Shown here piece by piece: positions 1,003 to 60,569 of a stretch of DNA of 64,000 bases. Position 1 is the first letter of the stretch. Every line of letters starts with the position of its first letter. A program made the position numbers and the translations under genes. Source of the stretch: Marinobacterium profundum (lineage in GTDB: Bacteria; Pseudomonadota; Gammaproteobacteria; Pseudomonadales; Balneatricaceae); assembly GCF_001528745.1 (NCBI RefSeq), contig NZ_BCNS01000083.1:62001-126000 (forward strand), read 5' to 3'. The notes under the pieces are model-generated. The model searched no databases, had not been told where the DNA came from, and saw only the letters and a list, made by a program, of their open reading frames with translations.

Positions 1003-2958
<1,956 letters not shown>

Positions 2959-3327
2959 TGAAATGCCCTTAAGATTGCTTGTTTTAATTATGTGATCCTG
3001 GATGCGCACAGGCAGCCGGTCGAACTTAACTCTGACCTACTGCACAAAAGCCCGACAAGTTGCTGGACGCTAACAACGGATCTATGGCGTAGAGTTATAC
3101 AGACTTCACCGCAGCGTCCTGAATTAGACATTGGTATATCCCGTTCCCTGATCCAGCGCCTGACAGACAAAATCCGGGCCGCGCCAGCGCACTGCAACAG
3201 CCACCCGGAGCGGCCTGGGGCCCGGTACGACTGAATACCAATCCATTGCACACCATAGTACTAAAAGACTAGCGCAGCATGGTTCAGACGTAGCTGTAAC
3301 AGCATAAGCGCAATGCTGGACGCAGTA
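2959..3327. other. Gene-free stretch between acs and fleR
   Basis: This 369-base gap is the leader and promoter region of acs (read leftwards) and lies downstream of fleR. Apart from the acs ribosome-binding site at about 2966-2970, I could not identify a convincing promoter, terminator, repeat or small gene in it. Short open frames on both strands have no recognisable product. Confidence 0.4.
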
Positions 3328-4716
3328 TTAATCGTTCAGCCTAAAGCCGCTCTCGCGCATTCGTGCCAGCTTGTAGCGCAGGGTGCGCGGGCTTATGCCC
3401 AGCCGCTCGGCGGCATCTTTGCGACTGCCGCCGCTCTGCTGCAACGCATCCACGATAAGCTGAAACTCATGCTGGCGCAGATCCGATCCCAGCTGGCCGG
3501 CATCGTCTGCTTCACCACCATTTTCAGCCTGGGCCCCGCTGTCTTCTTCGATCGGAACCTGGGTCGCGGCAAACTGACTGATACTGATAGCCCCCGGCGC
3601 CAGATGCAGGTCGGCGGCCTGAATGCGGGTGCCGGTTTGCAGGATGAGTGCCCGCTGCATAACGTTATCCAGCTCGCGTACATTACCGGGCCAGCCGTGA
3701 TCCAGCAGTAACTGGCGTGCCTCGGGGCACAGGCTGGCAGGTGGGCGGTGCATCTTGATGCAATGCTTGGCCAGCAGACGCTCGGCCAGGGGCAGTACAT
3801 CGCCTGGGCGCTCGCGCAGCGGCAGCCACTGCAGCGGAAATACATTCAGGCGGTAATACAGGTCTTCGCGAAAACGGCCCTCGGCCACAAAAGCCTCAAG
3901 CGCGCGGTTACTGGTGGCCAGCACCCGCACGTTGAGTTTAATGGCCTTGCGCCCGCCGATACGCTCGACCTCCTGCTCCTGCAATACGCGCAGCAGTTTG
4001 GCCTGAAGCCCAAGGTCCATCTCACTGATTTCATCCAGCAGCAAGGTGCCACCATTGGCCTGTTCAAACTTGCCAGCATGACTGCTGTAGGCGCCGGTAA
4101 AGGCGCCCTTTTCATGCCCGAACAGCGTGGCTTCCAGCATGTTTTCCGGAATAGCGGCGCAATTGATGGCCACAAAGGGCTGATCGTTACGGGCCGAATG
4201 CTGGTGAATATACTGTGCCAGCACTTCCTTGCCAGTGCCGGACTCGCCGGTAATCAGCACCGTGGAGTCCGTTTCTGCCACCCGTCGTGCCAGCTGTAGT
4301 AATTGTCGGCTGCCGGCATCCTCGGCGATAGGCGGCTCGAACGCCGATACACCGGCGACACCTGCGTGCAGCCTGATGGTTTCAATAAGCTGTTCAGGCT
4401 CGAAGGGCTTCATCAGATAGTCGACAGCGCCGGCGCGAATAGCCTCCACCGCTTTCTGCACCTGGCCAAATGCAGTGATCAGCACCACCGGCAGGCAGGG
4501 GTGGGATTGCTGCAGCCGGGCCAGCAGACCGTGGCCATCGAGCCCCGGCATGTTGACGTCGCTGACCACTATATCCACCGCCGACTGCTTCAGCCGCTCA
4601 AGCGCCTGCAGGCCATCGCAGGCCTCCAGATACTCGAAACCCGCCAGCGCCAGGGTATCCGCGAGGGCTTCACGCAGCGCCTGATCATCTTCGACTATTA
4701 AAACCCGAATACTCAT
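3328..4716 (-). CDS. fleR: Sigma-54-dependent flagellar response regulator FleR/FlrC
   Basis: A 462-residue NtrC-type activator. The receiver domain (about 1-120) has D10-D11 and the phospho-acceptor D53. The AAA+ domain (about 130-365) has the Walker A motif GESGTGKE and the sigma-54 contact loop GAFTGA. A Fis-type helix-turn-helix lies at about 425-455 (GSRKDAAERLGISPRTLRYK). In Pseudomonas and Vibrio this protein is phosphorylated by FleS/FlrB and activates middle (class III) flagellar genes. It is the third gene of a fleQ-fleS-fleR run, 41 bases after fleS. The sigma-54 promoters before flgB and flgF in this window are its likely targets. Confidence 0.95.
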   Translation of the reverse strand: MSIRVLIVEDDQALREALADTLALAGFEYLEACDGLQALERLKQSAVDIVVSDVNMPGLDGHGLLARLQQSHPCLPVVLITAFGQVQKAVEAIRAGAVDYLMKPFEPEQLIETIRLHAGVAGVSAFEPPIAEDAGSRQLLQLARRVAETDSTVLITGESGTGKEVLAQYIHQHSARNDQPFVAINCAAIPENMLEATLFGHEKGAFTGAYSSHAGKFEQANGGTLLLDEISEMDLGLQAKLLRVLQEQEVERIGGRKAIKLNVRVLATSNRALEAFVAEGRFREDLYYRLNVFPLQWLPLRERPGDVLPLAERLLAKHCIKMHRPPASLCPEARQLLLDHGWPGNVRELDNVMQRALILQTGTRIQAADLHLAPGAISISQFAATQVPIEEDSGAQAENGGEADDAGQLGSDLRQHEFQLIVDALQQSGGSRKDAAERLGISPRTLRYKLARMRESGFRLND

Positions 4717-52802: not shown

Positions 52803-53477
52803 TCAGTCGGCTTTTGTATCCAGAAACAGGGTTTCAACGACGCGGCTATTGGAGTGCTCGATATGCGCACGCAGTAACTCACAGGCCGCCTCTTCATCAC
52901 GGCGAAAAGCCGCTTCCATGATCAACTCATGTTCATCCACTTCGGTGGAGCCTTCGCGCAAATTGATCAGGGACAAGCGACGAAAGCGTTCGGACTGATC
53001 ATATAGAGTTGAGATGAAGCGCAGCTGCCACTTGGACGGGCACTGGGCGATCAGCGCCAGGTGAAAACGGCGATTTTCACGAATCAGCTCGCCCGCTCTT
53101 TCCTTTAACTGCCCCTGAGCTGCGCGACGTACGCTCAATTCACGGTGTCTCGCACCGGCGATACCCGCTTCCCAGTCAAGGTCGCCATGGCGGATGGACT
53201 GGCGAAACGCATCCACTTCCAGCATGACACGCAGGCGCGCCACTTCCAGAAACTCCTCCACCGACACCGGCGCTGCCCAGTAACCACGCTGCCCCTTGCG
53301 AACCACCAGCCCCTCAGCCGCCAGGCGCGACAGAGCTTCGCGCACCGGCGCTGCACTGGACTCGTAGCGAGCCGACAGGTGGCTGATGGACAGCTTGCTG
53401 GCGGGTTCAATGGAGCCATCCAGAATGTCGTTACGCAGCTGCTGACAGGTACTGCTGTTCTCGTCGTCAGTGTTCAT
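52803..53477 (-). CDS. GntR-family regulator (FadR/FCD subgroup)
   Basis: A 224-residue regulator with an N-terminal winged helix (about 10-72; LSISHLSARYESSAAPVREALSRLAAEGLV) and a helical FCD ligand domain (about 85-215). Its metal-binding pattern is only partly visible (ENRRFHLALIA, then DEHELIMEAAFRRDEEAACELLRAHIEHS). It is divergent from the VOC/TIM-barrel pair and probably controls it. The frame stays open 45 codons upstream, but the family begins near the ATG at 53477. Confidence 0.88.
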   Translation of the reverse strand: MNTDDENSSTCQQLRNDILDGSIEPASKLSISHLSARYESSAAPVREALSRLAAEGLVVRKGQRGYWAAPVSVEEFLEVARLRVMLEVDAFRQSIRHGDLDWEAGIAGARHRELSVRRAAQGQLKERAGELIRENRRFHLALIAQCPSKWQLRFISTLYDQSERFRRLSLINLREGSTEVDEHELIMEAAFRRDEEAACELLRAHIEHSNSRVVETLFLDTKAD

Positions 53478-53823
53478 TACTGTACCGCTCCAGGCCTGCG
53501 CCGGAGCGCGGCAGCCACTGTTCAAGTTGGGGCCTAAGCTAACAAGAACGGCATTGAAAGCCAATCGCCGCATTCCGATGCAATACGGCAACTGTAGAAA
53601 GTAACAGCACATATAAAAATAGATATCATAAATTCATTTAAGTAGTATCTAATAAAATCGAGATGACATTTAATCACGACCTTAAACCAGCCCGGCCCGG
53701 GCCTGCTCCGCTAAACAACCGAGCGCCTATACTGAAGTGGCTGCGCCGCCAGAGAGACGCCAGCCCTTCGCCGGACTGAGCCTGCGAAGCAACTATGAAT
53801 CATCCGAGGGAGACATCCAGCAC
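53478..53823. other. Divergent control region between GntR and VOC genes
   Basis: This 346-base gap has an AT-rich core near 53610-53670 with GATATC and AGTATC in loosely inverted order, a possible GntR operator area. The word at 53773-53788 (GGACTGAGCCTGCGAA) is shared with 24292-24307. A reading-frame extension of the VOC gene enters from 53737 but is not favoured. Confidence 0.4.
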
Positions 53824-54672
53824 ATGCCGGACACCAGTACCAAGAACGCCACTGACAGCACCGCCGTACGTATTGAGGGGCTGGAGTTTGTAGAGTTCGC
53901 CGCGCCCGATCCTGCGCAGCTGGTGCATTTGCTGGAGCAGCTTGGTTTTAGGGCCTGCGCCCGGCACCGCAGCAAGGATGTCACCCTGTACCGCCAGGGA
54001 GAGATCAACTTTATCGTCAACGCCACCCCCGGCAGCTTTGCCCAGTCTTATGCACAGCAGCGTGGTGCGTCCATTTGCGCCCTGGCGCTGCGGGTCAACG
54101 ATGTCAACAGCGCCTACCAGACCCTGCTGGCACGGGGTGCCTGGGAGGCCAGCACCACCGCCGGCGTGATGGAACTGAACATCCCGGCACTGGAGTGCAT
54201 CGGTGGCAGCCAGATCTACCTGATCGACCGCTACGGCCAGGATCTCAGTATTTACGATATTGATTTCAAGGCTCTGCCGGACAGCAAAGCCCCGGCAGAA
54301 ATCCTGCAACAGGTGAATGGGCTAACGCTATCGGTCTGTGCCGGGCGCAGCATTGAATGGAGCGATTTCTTTTGTCAGCTGTTCGGATTCAGCGCCACCG
54401 TACCTGGCCTTGTAATCAGCCCGGATGGCGCTCTGCAATTGCGGTTTCAGGAACTGGAAGCTGAGCACAGCGACCTTGCCGACGAAGGCTTTGCCAGTAT
54501 CGAACTCAGCACCCAGGACCTGGCCGGTACAGAGGCTAGCCTGAGCGCTAGCGGGCTGCAACTCAGGCCTGCGGGCCCTGCGAACACTCAAACAGGCAAA
54601 CAACCCCAGGATTGTTATGCCGTGCAGCACCCGCTGTTTGATTCCAGCGTCCAATTCTTTATCGGCCGGTAA
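53824..54672 (+). CDS. VOC-superfamily protein resembling the HPPD-like half of QuiC
   Basis: A 282-residue protein with two vicinal-oxygen-chelate modules (about 16-150 and 160-282). It resembles the C-terminal, 4-hydroxyphenylpyruvate-dioxygenase-like half of bacterial 3-dehydroshikimate dehydratases (IEGLEFVEFAAPD, RHRSKDVTLYRQGEINFIVN, GASICALALRV). In that family three ligands bind the metal. Here the first His position is N165-G166 (VNGL), the second is near S225 (FASIEL), and the terminal Glu is missing (VQFFIGR). So dioxygenase chemistry looks impossible. The start at 53824 follows GAGGGAG. The TIM-barrel gene follows after 6 bases. Confidence 0.8.
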   Translation: MPDTSTKNATDSTAVRIEGLEFVEFAAPDPAQLVHLLEQLGFRACARHRSKDVTLYRQGEINFIVNATPGSFAQSYAQQRGASICALALRVNDVNSAYQTLLARGAWEASTTAGVMELNIPALECIGGSQIYLIDRYGQDLSIYDIDFKALPDSKAPAEILQQVNGLTLSVCAGRSIEWSDFFCQLFGFSATVPGLVISPDGALQLRFQELEAEHSDLADEGFASIELSTQDLAGTEASLSASGLQLRPAGPANTQTGKQPQDCYAVQHPLFDSSVQFFIGR

Positions 54673-54678
54673 GTATCC

Positions 54679-55533
54679 ATGACTCAAGGCAACAACAGCA
54701 CAGCACCGCGTTTCTCCATCAGCAGCCTGAGCCTGACCGGCACTCTGGACGCCAAACTCCAGGCCATAACCGCAGCGGGTTTTGATGCCGTCGAGCTGGG
54801 AGCTCTGGATTTGTCGGGAGCAAAAGATGGCGTCAGCGGCTCGGTTGAGTGTATCCACAGCAGTGGCCTGCGTATCAGCGCTCTGCAGGAAGTGCGTGAC
54901 TTCGGCGGCCATTCAGGTCGGATCATGGCCTACAAGATTGAGCTGGCCAAAACCTATCTGCAACTCATGGCACGCCTGGGTTGTCGACTGCTGATCGTTA
55001 CCCCGGCCACCTCATCCCACGCCTCGGTGGATATTGACCGCATGGCCACAGACCTGCGTACCCTGGCAACACTGGCAACACTGCGCGGCATCCGTATCGG
55101 CTTCAAGCCGCTGGCCTGGGCCCATGATGTGCACAACTATCCGCTGGCCTGGGAAATCATCAAGCGCGCGGGCAACACCAACCTCAGTCTGGTGATCGAC
55201 AGCTTCCACCTGCTGGCCCAGGCCCAGGGTCCGGAGTCCCTGGCCGAGATCCCCGTTGAGCGCATCAGCCTGGTTCAATTGTCCGACTTTGCCATGAGTG
55301 CCATTCCTGCACTGGAAGACAAGATCGAGATCGCCCGCCATGCCCGCCTTTATCCTGGCGAAGGCAGCCACGGCCAGAGCATCCGCGAACTAATTCGCTA
55401 CTGCCAGGGCATCGGCTATCGGGGGGATTATGTGTTCGACGTATTCAATGACAAGTACCTGGCCCAGGCACCCCAGGACGCACTGCAGCACGCCACCCAG
55501 TCGCGCCAGTGGCTGCTCGACGGGCTGGACTGA
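54679..55533 (+). CDS. TIM-barrel protein resembling the QuiC dehydratase half
   Basis: A 284-residue xylose-isomerase-like (AP endonuclease 2 fold) protein. It resembles the N-terminal half of QuiC-type 3-dehydroshikimate dehydratase, which makes protocatechuate. Family landmarks are ISSLSLTGTLDAKLQAITAAGFDAVEL, GFKPLAWAHDVHNYPLAW, LVIDSFHLL, ISLVQLSDFA and GDYVFDVFND. Of the usual metal ligands, D174 and Q200 are kept (with H177), but the first Glu is K143 and the last Glu is D254. Activity may be altered or lost. In known QuiC proteins this half comes first and is fused to the VOC half; here it is second and separate. Confidence 0.8.
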   Translation: MTQGNNSTAPRFSISSLSLTGTLDAKLQAITAAGFDAVELGALDLSGAKDGVSGSVECIHSSGLRISALQEVRDFGGHSGRIMAYKIELAKTYLQLMARLGCRLLIVTPATSSHASVDIDRMATDLRTLATLATLRGIRIGFKPLAWAHDVHNYPLAWEIIKRAGNTNLSLVIDSFHLLAQAQGPESLAEIPVERISLVQLSDFAMSAIPALEDKIEIARHARLYPGEGSHGQSIRELIRYCQGIGYRGDYVFDVFNDKYLAQAPQDALQHATQSRQWLLDGLD

Positions 55534-55637: not shown

Positions 55638-57611
55638 CTAACCGTTCTGCAGCCGCTCAACATGGGGCTCTGCAAGCTCCGCCGCCATCGCAGCGCAGAC
55701 CCGGTTGCGGCCGCTGTTTTTCGCTTCGTACAGGGCCGCGTCGGCGCTGGCCAATACGGCCTCCAGCGTATCCATGCCGTCTGTCAGTTGCGAAACACCA
55801 AAGCTCGAGGTTACAGCCACAGCTGCGTCAGTTGTCGCCGTAACTTCATCACTAGCTGCCGCATTCTCCTCCAGAGCCACTCGACATTCCTGAACCGCAA
55901 CACGCAGCCGTTCGGCCAGTATCAAGGCGGACTCCCGTGGCGTCTGCACCAGGATAACGGCGAATTCCTCACCGCCAATCCGCGCCTTGAGGTCAGAATC
56001 CCGCAGTACAGTGGTGAGCGTGCGGGCCACAGCCTGGATAACCTTGTCCCCTACCCCGTGGCCGAAGCGGTCATTAACCGTCTTGAAGCGGTCTATATCC
56101 AGCATGATCACGCTAAGCGGCTGGCGGTGGCGCAGAGCCCGCCCAATCTCTTCGTTACCGCGTTCAAAAAATGCGCGTCTGTTGAGCAGGCCTGTCAGGG
56201 AGTCTTCCCGCGCCATAATCTCGGCCTGGTGCCTTGAGGCTTCAAGCTCCCGTGTCCGCTCCAGCACCTTGGACTCCAGCTCATTTCTCGATCTTAACGA
56301 AGCATTCAACTCCCGTTTTTCGGCACTGAGCTTTTCATTGCGCAGAATATTGATCCGATCCGCCAGCGCAAAGGCCAGCAGCACCGTCTGCAAGATCATG
56401 CCAAAACGAGTCGCACCAATGGAGAAAGGGTCGGAAGGCATTATGCCCGTGAAGCGAAAAATGGCGCTGATGATCGACAGCGACCAGATACTCCAGGCCA
56501 GCGTATAGCCACGGGCAATCTGATGGCCCTGATACCAGAGCCAGGCACCGAGAACGGGAAACAGCCCCAGCACCAGCCCGATAAGCAGTGTCAGGTTGAC
56601 CGAAGCGCCACTAAAACCGCCAAATAACAGCAGTACGCTGACCCCGGAAAGCACAATCAACCCCAGCAGGATGCGATCACAGCGCGGTGCCCTAAGCCGG
56701 GTATCCAGAAAGCTGCGGCTGAACTGCACCGCCAGCATATAAAACAGAATCACCGCAATATTGGGGATGATGCCAGAGAGCCACGGGCTGAAATGCCACA
56801 AATAACGATATCCCAGACCACTCATGGCGAGATACAACAGGGTGGCCGCCGAAGCGTAAAGCAGATACCAGAAGAATGGCGCCTCGCGTACAGACAGCAT
56901 CAGGAAAAAATTATAAAGGATGACCAGCAGGATGGCGCCGAGGAAGACGCCAAGCAATAAAGCCTTGGTATGCTGCTGCCGCGCATAGTCCGCCGCCGTA
57001 GAGGCCTCCTGATAAATATTGATAATGCCGGCCGACTCGTAGGCAAAACGCAGATAGATCTCACTGCTTGAGCCCGGTGCCGTCAGATAGGAAAAGTGGA
57101 ATGTTTCACTGGGCAATGCAGCCGTATCATGGGGCCGGTGATCACCGGATAGCTGCCGACCGACAGTGCCGTCGGCACGTATTTCGTAACTGTCGATATA
57201 GTCCAGAGTGTTGTGGGGAATATCCTGCATCCAGGCAACAGCCTCGCTCCCAGGGTTTTGCACCTCCAACCGCACCCACCAGGCGGATGACGATACTCCG
57301 AAAGCGGTCTTGGCCACTGCCAGCGGGGCAAACTGCTGGTTCCATGGATCGCTGCGAACATCCTCAAGTGTGAGCCTGCCATCCGGGTCTTCCAGCACCG
57401 ACAAATAGGGCGCTAGCTGCACTGCCTGCATGACCGGCTGCAGCACCAGCACGGCACCAGACTCAGCGCCCAATCCCACCCCAGGAAAAGCACCCAATAG
57501 CAGCATGACCAGTGAACAAAGCCAACCCCGGGCAGCGACAACCACGGTGGACGGTTCAGAACGCCACCCACCGCACTGCGCTGCCGAAGCACGGCGTTGG
57601 CCGCACAGCAT
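55638..57611 (-). CDS. Diguanylate cyclase with 7TMR-DISM sensor
   Basis: A protein of about 657 residues. After a signal/transmembrane N-terminus comes a periplasmic 7TMR-DISMED2-type domain (WWVRLEVQNPGSEAVAWMQD, then FHFSYLTAPGSSSEIYLRF), seven membrane helices, a short coiled coil (ELESKVLERTRELEASRHQAE) and a GGDEF domain with DSLTGLLNRRAFFE, DIDRFKTVNDRFGH and the active-site variant GGEEF, so c-di-GMP synthesis is expected. The RxxD inhibitory site is not evident. The frame is open to 57764; ATG codons at 57677 and 57611 are possible and neither has a strong ribosome-binding site. FleQ in this window could respond to the c-di-GMP made. Confidence 0.9.
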   Translation of the reverse strand: MLCGQRRASAAQCGGWRSEPSTVVVAARGWLCSLVMLLLGAFPGVGLGAESGAVLVLQPVMQAVQLAPYLSVLEDPDGRLTLEDVRSDPWNQQFAPLAVAKTAFGVSSSAWWVRLEVQNPGSEAVAWMQDIPHNTLDYIDSYEIRADGTVGRQLSGDHRPHDTAALPSETFHFSYLTAPGSSSEIYLRFAYESAGIINIYQEASTAADYARQQHTKALLLGVFLGAILLVILYNFFLMLSVREAPFFWYLLYASAATLLYLAMSGLGYRYLWHFSPWLSGIIPNIAVILFYMLAVQFSRSFLDTRLRAPRCDRILLGLIVLSGVSVLLLFGGFSGASVNLTLLIGLVLGLFPVLGAWLWYQGHQIARGYTLAWSIWSLSIISAIFRFTGIMPSDPFSIGATRFGMILQTVLLAFALADRINILRNEKLSAEKRELNASLRSRNELESKVLERTRELEASRHQAEIMAREDSLTGLLNRRAFFERGNEEIGRALRHRQPLSVIMLDIDRFKTVNDRFGHGVGDKVIQAVARTLTTVLRDSDLKARIGGEEFAVILVQTPRESALILAERLRVAVQECRVALEENAAASDEVTATTDAAVAVTSSFGVSQLTDGMDTLEAVLASADAALYEAKNSGRNRVCAAMAAELAEPHVERLQNG

Positions 57612-57896
57612 CACGTCAGTTTCACTCTGCAACTCATGCCTAACCGAATGTTTATACACCAATACATCAGCATCCATATCAACGCGCTGGGGTCGATTCT
57701 TCGCCAATATAGCATTGTTATATAACAAACCGGCAAGCCGGATGGCCGCAGACTCAGCCAACAAAAGATGACTTTTAGATGTTTATTTACGCCGCAAGCC
57801 ACCTGCCTTTATTTGCTAAGTGGAAAGTGCGCCTGGAAAGTTCAGCCGCCCTGTATTCATCCCCCCGTTACTGGAGGCCACCGCTGCGTAGCTCTC

Positions 57897-59417
57897 TCAA
57901 ACTCCTTGATAGGCCAGATAGGCATTGGACTCGGCATCGGCACACCAGTCTCCGCCGCGGACAAACTGCTTGCTGGCATCCTGACGTGGCTCATAATCCC
58001 AGGATTTTTGCGCACCCTTTTTCAGGGCACCATGAATCAAACGACGCGCATTCTGATCCTTGATGATATCCCCTCTGAGCGTTTCCAAATCCCATTCAGC
58101 CTGTGCGATTAGCAGCAGGCTCTGCAGGCAATCGGCATGATCTGCGCGGGTGGCAAGGTTGTTCTGCTCCAGCGGATCTTCATCCAGGTTGAACAGCAGA
58201 GGTTCGGCATCTGCGCTAAGCAATAACTTGTAAGGGTCACGGATAAGTGCGACCTGCGGTGTATTTGTCCCTTCAGCGAGGTACTCCGCACGCGGCAACG
58301 GTGCCGTCTGCGGGGTTCTGTTGTGCAGATAGGGCAGCAGGCTGGTGCCATCCAGCTGCAAACCAGAGCAATCACTCACACCGGCCATTTCCAGCAGGGT
58401 TGGGAACAGGTCCAGATGAGACACACTGTTGTTCACCCGAGCAGGCTGACCTGCAGAGGGCATTCGAATAACCAGAGGCACACGCAAAGACCATTCGTAG
58501 AACGACTTTTTGTACCACATGCCCCTTTCACCCATCATGTCACCATGGTCAGAGGTGAAGATCACGATGGTATTTTCCCACTGCCCCGTTTTCTTCAGGG
58601 TATCCACCAGCTGACCCACCTTGTGATCGATGTAGCTGATCGACGCATAGTAGCCGTGCCGGGCGCTCAACGTTTCCTGCTCGGTCGGCAGCCGGCGATC
58701 CATGCCATAGTGGAAATACAGATCCTGACTGTGCTTGTCACGGTCCTCAAAGGCGACAAAGGGGGCAGCCGGTGCGTCGATCTCCTTGTCGTCGTACAGG
58801 TCCCAGAACTCAGGTGTTGGCGTATAGGGATCGTGGGGGTGGGTAAAGGAAACCGTCAGGAAGAACGGCCGCTTGTCCTTGCTCCGCGCCAGATCATAAA
58901 TTTTCTGATTAGCCTTATAAGCCACGAGTTCATCGAAATCCAGCTGCATAGTGCGAGCCGCTGGCGCCGCCGAGGTCACATTGCCCATGTCCTGAAAGGC
59001 CAGCTTCGTATCCTGCTGCTGCCAGTTTGGGATCCAGCTAAAGTCGGCCGGATAGATTTCCGTTGTCAGTCGCTCCTCGTAACCATGTAGCTGGTCCGCC
59101 CCCACAAAGTGCATCTTGCCCACCAGACTGGTCTGATAGCCGGCGTCCCGCAGCCCATGCACAAATGTCGGGATGGAAGACTTGAATTCGGCCGCGTTGT
59201 CGTAGGCACCTATCTTTGAACACAACTGCCCTGCCAGCATGGCATAACGTGCCGGCGCGCACAGCGGAAAGTTACAATAGGCCCGGTTAAATACCGTTCC
59301 CTCGCTTGCCAGTGCTGTGATATTCGGCGCTTTGACGACATCATGACCATAAATAGGTAACGCGGGGGCTGCGACCTGATCGGCCATGATAAAAATAATA
59401 TTTGGCTGAGTGCCCAT
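57897..59417 (-). CDS. betC: Choline sulfatase
   Basis: A 506-residue type I sulfatase that hydrolyses choline-O-sulfate to choline and sulfate. The formylglycine motif is C53-A-P-A-R57 in NFPLCAPARYAMLAGQ. Metal ligands are suggested by IIFIMADQ at the N-terminus and IVIFTSDHGDMMGERGMWYKKSFYEWS in the middle. The choline-sulfatase-like C-terminus is present. It lies 129 bases after the ProX-like gene on the same strand, next to a LysR regulator of the choline-sulfate type. Betaine-forming betA/betB are not in the window. Confidence 0.93.
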   Translation of the reverse strand: MGTQPNIIFIMADQVAAPALPIYGHDVVKAPNITALASEGTVFNRAYCNFPLCAPARYAMLAGQLCSKIGAYDNAAEFKSSIPTFVHGLRDAGYQTSLVGKMHFVGADQLHGYEERLTTEIYPADFSWIPNWQQQDTKLAFQDMGNVTSAAPAARTMQLDFDELVAYKANQKIYDLARSKDKRPFFLTVSFTHPHDPYTPTPEFWDLYDDKEIDAPAAPFVAFEDRDKHSQDLYFHYGMDRRLPTEQETLSARHGYYASISYIDHKVGQLVDTLKKTGQWENTIVIFTSDHGDMMGERGMWYKKSFYEWSLRVPLVIRMPSAGQPARVNNSVSHLDLFPTLLEMAGVSDCSGLQLDGTSLLPYLHNRTPQTAPLPRAEYLAEGTNTPQVALIRDPYKLLLSADAEPLLFNLDEDPLEQNNLATRADHADCLQSLLLIAQAEWDLETLRGDIIKDQNARRLIHGALKKGAQKSWDYEPRQDASKQFVRGGDWCADAESNAYLAYQGV

Positions 59418-59546: not shown

Positions 59547-60569
59547 TTACTTAGCGGTGCTTGCGTTGCGGGCTTCTGCCAGCCAGCGGTCAAAATCAGT
59601 TTGATTCGCCTTAATCCAGCTTTCTGCATGGCGGATAATATCCTTCGGCTTGTCTTCGCCCGCTTCAATCAGTGCATTCTCGGCATTCACATCTTTTATA
59701 TCGATCGAGACATTTTCAAAAAATGATCTGGCAGCCGGGTTTTCTGACAGAAAAGCCTTGTTCGACATGATCTGAACGGTATTGGGTTCGAAGCCAAGCT
59801 CCAGCCCCTGGGTTGCGCCTTTTTCGGGATCTCGAATATTTAACCAGGTCACGTCTTTTTCCGGCACCAGGATGTTGCTGACCCACATCGGAGTCCAGGT
59901 GTAGTAAAGAACGGGATTACCTTTGCCATAGTGCGCAATCGTATCTGCAATCAGGGCACCATAAACCCCCTGTCGGTGCGTGACCGTCTCGCGCAACCCA
60001 AGACGGTCCAGGTGCTCTTCGATGACGTTTTCACAGCCCCAGCCCGGGTTGCAGCCGGTCAGGTCGGCCTTGCCATCACCATCAATATCGAACAGCTGCG
60101 CTACCTTGGGGTCCTTGAGCTGTGCCAGGTCCGTGATGGCATGGGCATCCGCCGTTTTCTTGTCAATCAGTATGCCCTGCAAGGCATCCTTGACCAGCGC
60201 CCCTACGCGCGTATTCACCTCATCCCCGCCGGAACGCTCGTAATAATCTTCGTGCAGTGGATTCCAGTGTACCGCCATGTAATCCGCATCTTCCTGCCCA
60301 ACCGAGAGGTGGGCGATCGTGGGATCCGCTTCCAGTGCCTTATTGACCTTGTAGCCCAGCTGCTCCAACCCAAGGCGCACAACTTCTGTCTGGAACTGAG
60401 TGTTAATGTTGCCAAAATCTATCGGTCGCACAGTGACGCCCGCCCCAGGTTCCTGCAAGGCAGTGTCACTCAATGCCTGATGCGTCACAGACAGTGAAAG
60501 CAGCGCTGTGCCGCAGACAAGCCCCATGCGTTTGAAACTGTCGGTATTACCCATTCCGGGAAAAAACAT
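59547..60569 (-). CDS. ProX-like glycine betaine/proline-betaine binding protein
   Basis: A 340-residue periplasmic substrate-binding protein with a signal peptide (about 1-34). It closely follows the ProX pattern: FQTEVVRLGLEQLGYKVNKALEADPT, AVHWNPLHEDYYE, DIDGDGKADLTGCNPGWGCE and YYTWTPMWVSNILVPEKDV. The tryptophans that cage a quaternary ammonium are visible in the last two. No ATPase or permease gene accompanies it. Being beside betC, it may bind choline sulfate or betaine. AGGTGA stands 6 bases before the first ATG, which decides the start. Confidence 0.9.
   Translation of the reverse strand: MFFPGMGNTDSFKRMGLVCGTALLSLSVTHQALSDTALQEPGAGVTVRPIDFGNINTQFQTEVVRLGLEQLGYKVNKALEADPTIAHLSVGQEDADYMAVHWNPLHEDYYERSGGDEVNTRVGALVKDALQGILIDKKTADAHAITDLAQLKDPKVAQLFDIDGDGKADLTGCNPGWGCENVIEEHLDRLGLRETVTHRQGVYGALIADTIAHYGKGNPVLYYTWTPMWVSNILVPEKDVTWLNIRDPEKGATQGLELGFEPNTVQIMSNKAFLSENPAARSFFENVSIDIKDVNAENALIEAGEDKPKDIIRHAESWIKANQTDFDRWLAEARNASTAK

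Follow-up and report, generated by a model that had tools for sequence, protein, structure and literature searches.

The locus examined here, a tandem pair of a VOC gene and a TIM-barrel gene in Marinobacterium profundum, raises the question of whether it represents a QuiC-type dehydroshikimate dehydratase (DSD) that was cut in two and reordered, as the first-pass annotation proposed, and what such a pair would do after the replacement of its metal ligands. The 64-kb stretch of DNA analyzed is hereafter called the window.

Layout of the Gene Pair

The first-pass annotation had read a VOC gene followed after 6 bases by a TIM-barrel gene on the same strand, with a GntR gene running divergently. 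The two ORFs were recovered in the window at the same coordinates and on one strand, with the GntR/FCD gene divergent from them (Table 1), and both reading frames of the pair are free of stops. A fused quiC of the ordinary type is located approximately 25 kb from the split pair on the same contig of this genome, adjoining a LysR gene and a gene that resembles pcaD by eye. An Rfam search of the 50–60 kb region of the window gave no matches. The large sensor gene in Table 1 has a counterpart split into two ORFs in the congener G003 (L034 14872–16913). The choline sulfatase gene and the ProX-like gene adjoining it probably serve osmoprotectant supply.

Table 1. Coordinates of the features located in the window.
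Feature	Coordinates	Strand	Remarks
GntR/FCD regulator gene, CsiR-like	52803–53477	-	Divergent from the pair; start set by orthologues
Palindromic operator-like site TTAAGTAGTATCTAA (consensus TTAGRTASTAYCTAA)	53638–53652		15 bp, in the GntR–VOC gap; one mismatch
VOC gene, 282 aa	53824–54672	+	HPPD-related two-domain protein without Fe ligands
TIM-barrel gene, 284 aa	54679–55533	+	Relative of the QuiC N-half; K143/D254 replace two metal-binding Glu
Large sensor protein gene	55638–57764	-	GGDEF-like end (by eye)
Choline sulfatase gene	57897–59417	-	TIGR03417, 627 bits
ProX-like glycine betaine/proline binding protein gene	59547–60569	-	Adjoins the choline sulfatase gene

Kinship and Active Sites of the Two Proteins

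In a profile search, the TIM protein matched the QuiC model NF042435 at 8e-46 (157 bits), and the VOC protein scored 123 bits against the same model; its cut-off of 1200 bits, which half-length proteins could hardly attain, was reached by neither. A search of solved structures with the TIM sequence yielded PDB 5hmq (QuiC1) at 1.3e-36, followed by IolI at 5e-8, and the best PDB matches of its AlphaFold model (pLDDT 83.5) were all 5hmq (TM 0.84). Databases label relatives of this protein as ‘sugar phosphate isomerase/epimerase’, which would agree with an ordinary sugar isomerase gene next to a glyoxalase gene, both unrelated to QuiC. However, QuiC1 is the closest solved structure by both sequence and fold, well ahead of IolI, and the genes described below place the pair in a shikimate/quinate context. 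This scarcely credible reading, which had been named beforehand as the one that would overturn the kinship to QuiC, was tested and ruled out by the sequence and fold searches.

The active-site residues of QuiC1 are Arg64, Leu97, Glu134, Leu136, Asp165, His168, Gln191, Ser206, Arg210, and Glu239 (PMC7442255). At these ten positions, the aligned window TIM carries R, I, K, L, D, H, Q, A, R, and D. The correspondences E134 to K143, D165 to D174, H168 to H177, Q191 to Q200, and E239 to D254 match exactly the residues that the first-pass annotation had given; S206 is changed to A219, and R64 and R210 are retained as R73 and R223. Glu134 and Glu239, both changed, are the first and third of the three metal ligands reported to be conserved in soluble DSDs, and the QuiC-type metal set Glu134, Asp165, Gln191, and Glu239 reads K, D, Q, and D in the window TIM.

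The VOC protein matched the HPPD N-terminal domain PF14696 at 8e-52 in a profile search, the best match lying in its N-terminal domain, and it matched P. fluorescens HPPD at 2.7e-43 and QuiC1 at 8e-27. Its AlphaFold model (pLDDT 77.8) was also closest to HPPD (TM 0.78). The C-domain of HPPD carries the iron, and the positions of the His/His/Glu Fe(II) triad align with G166, approximately S225, and no Glu, which agrees with the earlier claim that all three ligands are missing. Metal ligands are lost on both halves, in each case at the positions claimed, and the proposed functional shift is supported as well. The N-domain of the VOC protein (16–150) is conserved with a dN/dS of 0.05, and the C-domain (160–282) is fast-evolving (0.14–0.24). 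Loss of the HPPD ligands is common to the whole split family described below, which makes it separate from the ligand loss in the TIM.

Orthologues in Marinobacterium and Relatives

The prospect that the same split pair would recur beside a GntR gene was borne out. The same gene order and residue changes were found in 16 further genomes of the window's family and in two genomes from a second family of the order, which speaks against a chance arrangement, and the GntR/FCD orthologue is kept beside the pair in relatives. Orthologues occur in M. sedimentorum, rhizophilum, nitratireducens, ramblicola, litorale, mangrovicola, lutimaris, and lacunae, as well as in several genera of the family beyond Marinobacterium. 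Among the 19 Marinobacterium-type TIMs, position 134 of QuiC1 is Lys in 16 and Arg in 3. Of the substrate-side residues, Asp165 and Arg210 are invariant, and position 64 is always Arg or Lys. The residues Glu71, His78, and Pro109 (window numbering) are new near-invariants. The His168 and Glu239 positions are variable, the former being Gln, Ala, or Ser in 11 of 19. This pattern looks like a protein in which the acid-binding pocket was kept and a cation was built in at the metal position, and not like random decay.

A fused quiC is present in every genome with a Marinobacterium-type pair. A decaying duplicate without function would fit this redundancy and the faster evolution of the VOC C-domain. 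Nevertheless, the reading frames are open in all 19 orthologues, and the dN/dS between congeners is 0.05–0.09 for the TIM, as low as that of quiC (0.07), with the VOC N-domain similarly low. The ratios indicate strong purifying selection and rule out a pseudogene, and functionless decay is very improbable.

Shikimate/quinate clusters with genes such as aroE, aroQ, TRAP transporter, AEC permease, or quiC hold or adjoin the pair in eleven genomes (G004, G009, G024, G063, G065, G080, G081, G082, G085, G134, and G1027). Genes for a tripartite tricarboxylate (TTT) transporter, tctCBA, are located near it in G001, G003, G024, G030, G063, G065, G085, G109, G134, and G1027, and in some genomes the pair is linked to a Gfo/Idh dehydrogenase gene. 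In G109, its surroundings also include genes that resemble by eye a protocatechuate 4,5-cleavage set. The genome of the window contains no close orthologue of TctC (best 31% identity), and TctABC is consequently ruled out as an obligatory partner. Clusters of this type also repeatedly contain, together with TctABC, another TIM-barrel gene of a different kind (L027 18036–18854, L076 152–970, L077 5465–6301, and L123 7291–8100), joined in some cases by flavoprotein-like and shikimate dehydrogenase-like genes. In G030 (L029, about 2400–3841), a repeated stretch coding for ‘VHCRTGSLE’ lies upstream of the pair and has the appearance of a tandem or CRISPR-like array.

The basic residue at position 134 in all 19 TIMs, mostly Lys, the new near-invariant residues, and the linkage to the TTT transporter and in places to the Gfo/Idh dehydrogenase would be explained by a metal-independent enzyme. 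In such an enzyme, charge stabilization by Lys143, or its Schiff base to a 3-keto acid, would do the work of the metal. The pair would dehydrate or epimerize a related hydroaromatic acid, perhaps imported by TctABC. However, three orthologues carry an Arg, which is incapable of Schiff base formation, His168 of the active site is replaced in more than half of the orthologues, and no additional enzyme is constantly linked, so that we regard this explanation as rather unlikely.

Operator-like Palindrome

The palindrome listed in Table 1 is the only site in the window that matches TTAGRTASTAYCTAA at up to three mismatches. Its conservation between the GntR and VOC genes makes the suggested control of the pair by the divergent GntR plausible, and the GntR protein presumably binds it. 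A matrix trained solely on VOC-upstream sites gave scores of 17.7–20.3 outside the training set, namely at the promoters of tctC (G001, G003, G085, and G134), quiC/AEC (G009, G082, and G085), and aroE/AEC (G063 and G134); only 7 background positions in 359 kb reached a score of 12 or more. No strong site was obtained for tctC and quiC of G024, for quiC of G080 and G081, or in G978 and G1027. In the 5.6 Mb of the window's own genome, one other near-perfect palindrome was detected, adjoining genes without a visible link, and no convincing second target was found.

An operator common to the pair and quiC in several species is what one would expect if the window pair were still a DSD with an altered metal site composed of Asp174, Gln200, and Asp254, three residues that might in principle retain a metal. 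The window copy also keeps the counterparts of D165, H168, Q191, R64, and R210. Two of the three conserved metal ligands are nevertheless altered, one of them to a positive charge, H168 and residue 239 are also lost among orthologues, and every such genome possesses an intact fused QuiC. Residual DSD activity of this kind is hence improbable.

The Two-Gene Family in Burkholderiaceae

A class-wide search detected the same VOC-then-TIM order in the genome G243, and 200 genomes of its family (f130) were then searched. We take this family to be GTDB Burkholderiaceae, from a match to pVF1 of Vitreoscilla filiformis and the GTDB taxonomy. A split TIM occurs in 68 of the 200 sampled genomes (69 rows, one of which, G549, is the fused form only). 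The VOC gene precedes the TIM gene on the same strand in all 68 loci from which both genes were extracted (66 of this family, G978, and G1027), with a spacing that mostly ranges from a 4-nt overlap to approximately 20 nt apart; the extracted locus of G523 was without VOC, and that of G699 had VOC in two frames. The usual neighbors are TRAP, aroE, aroQ, and AEC. On pVF1, the order is TRAP QMP, shikimate dehydrogenase, ‘4-hydroxyphenylpyruvate dioxygenase’, and ‘sugar phosphate isomerase/epimerase’, with aroQ nearby. The TIM tree places the stand-alone TIM of G523 (L120 9637–10506), which has intact ligands and lies beside aroE/aroQ with no VOC gene seen, adjacent to fused QuiC.

Fused quiC was present in only 14 of the 71 tested genomes. 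Where it is absent, the split TIM has the full E-D-H-Q-E site in 55 of 56 genomes, the sole exception (G520) being a match reported with an in-frame TGA. Since every ligand is kept in these genomes, the Burkholderiaceae pair is probably their working DSD, as judged from its residues and gene context. The published class list contains four DSD classes, none of which is two-gene (PMC9324987). In the literature searched, there was no description of a split DSD or of a link to the TTT transporter, and no function for a pair of the Vitreoscilla filiformis VITFI_RS16415/RS16420 type.

Where fused quiC is present, 6 split TIMs are intact and 24 have lost the site (17 of the 24 in the window's family). 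Massilia putida has a further intact split TIM alongside fused quiC, and these seven exceptions rule out a strict rule by which fused quiC implies a lost metal site. An intermediate was found in Azoarcus KH32C, whose TIM reads E, D, Q, Q, and D and in whose VOC a His and the Glu are retained by eye. In G525 and G652 (L121 6940–10730 and L122 9677–13589), a split pair comes immediately after fused quiC. The TIM of this pair is without the metal site and Arg64, and the pair is a separate degenerate lineage. The window pair has the features of the split family, namely a single-domain QuiC-like TIM gene immediately preceded by a VOC gene on the same strand, a VOC protein within the split clade, and a shikimate/quinate context, which is given by the neighbors of its orthologues and, in its own genome, by the quiC approximately 25 kb away. 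The intact TIM metal site, which marks the subset of probable working DSDs, is absent from it.

Trees and History of Metal Loss

In the TIM tree, fused QuiC, the Burkholderiaceae split form, and the Marinobacterium-type split form are three lineages. The metal-less TIMs fall into two clades, one of 17 rows and one of 5 rows nested within the Burkholderiaceae form, and a single clade was rejected weakly (AU p = 0.03). Both losses lie in genomes with fused quiC, but approximately two independent events are too few for significance; the raw table of metal loss versus fused quiC gives a Fisher p of about 1e-14 with rows that are not independent observations. In the VOC tree, the split VOCs of Burkholderiaceae and the Marinobacterium group form one clade (100/97), which is joined with HPPD against fused QuiC (100/100); this tree is unrooted and gives no order of fusion versus splitting. 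The proposal of a divided and reordered QuiC was thus correct as to kinship with QuiC and HPPD, but a simple split and swap is not supported, since the VOC shares one clade with that of Burkholderiaceae, whose TIMs have an intact metal site, and the split VOC stands nearer to true HPPD than QuiC's own half does. The window pair is not an isolated splitting of QuiC, but most likely a repurposed member of a two-gene family.

Comparison with Known Systems and Proposed Function

The window pair shares with QuiC1/QsuB (PDB 5HMQ) a homologous TIM half (about 31–36% identity), an HPPD-like half, the shikimate/quinate gene context, and most substrate-side residues. It differs in that the halves are fused with TIM first in QuiC1/QsuB and are separate genes with VOC first in the window, where the TIM is without Glu134 and Glu239, the VOC is shorter, closer to HPPD, and devoid of ligands, and the genome has a fused QuiC besides. 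The Vitreoscilla-type pair is alike in gene order, spacing, VOC clade, and lost HPPD ligands, whereas its TIM metal site is fully intact and fused quiC is usually absent. The window VOC has the fold of HPPD and an N-domain 50% identical to that of PfHPPD, but it is without Fe ligands, about 75 residues shorter, and only 20% identical in the C-domain. AsbF and the fungal Qa-4 single-domain DSDs resemble the window TIM as stand-alone barrels; they retain the Glu/Asp/Glu metal ligands, and a VOC partner is not reported (PMC9324987). By its residues and gene layout, the window pair does not fit a QuiC-type DSD, nor by its residues an HPPD, but it belongs to a two-gene family that bears DSD hallmarks elsewhere.

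Replacement of a metal-binding Glu of the catalytic half by Lys makes a new role in shikimate/quinate breakdown probable. The pair is most likely a metal-free complex of this catabolism, with ligand binding or altered chemistry as its predicted task. Oligomer formation by QsuB is promoted by its HPPD half, and QsuB is mainly octameric while its N-domain alone is mainly monomeric (PMC7442255), which suggests a scaffold role for VOC. By analogy, VOC and TIM would form a hetero-oligomer with the VOC N-domain as a scaffold. The TIM pocket would bind a dehydroshikimate-like acid with Lys143 occupying the metal position, and the TIM would no longer carry out metal-dependent dehydration. We tentatively prefer a pseudoenzyme that binds a ligand and tunes the pathway. 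On balance, the window pair may be considered a metal-less, repurposed member of a VOC–TIM family that elsewhere resembles a working DSD. A fuller reading, conceivable as a whole but short of probable, is that a fifth, two-gene class of DSD is common among Burkholderiaceae, where databases give it the wrong names, and that in two lineages with fused QuiC it has become a metal-free complex with a basic (once Gln) residue in the metal position, serving new chemistry or the sensing of hydroaromatic acids in a shikimate/quinate regulon.

The split family points to a common, unnamed route for a key step of shikimate/quinate breakdown. As the pair is annotated as a dioxygenase and a sugar isomerase, the pathway seems incomplete in such genomes. 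The natural series from intact through intermediate to metal-less forms would present a metalloenzyme losing its metal while under selection. The finding also bears on the role of the HPPD half in QuiC, as in the present pair this half exists as a separate subunit devoid of metal ligands. As a minor observation, RefSeq gives the label ‘4-hydroxyphenylpyruvate dioxygenase’ to split VOC genes (L194 5023–5943, L195 6102–6998, and L196 6134–6958), although most of the split VOC family is without iron ligands.
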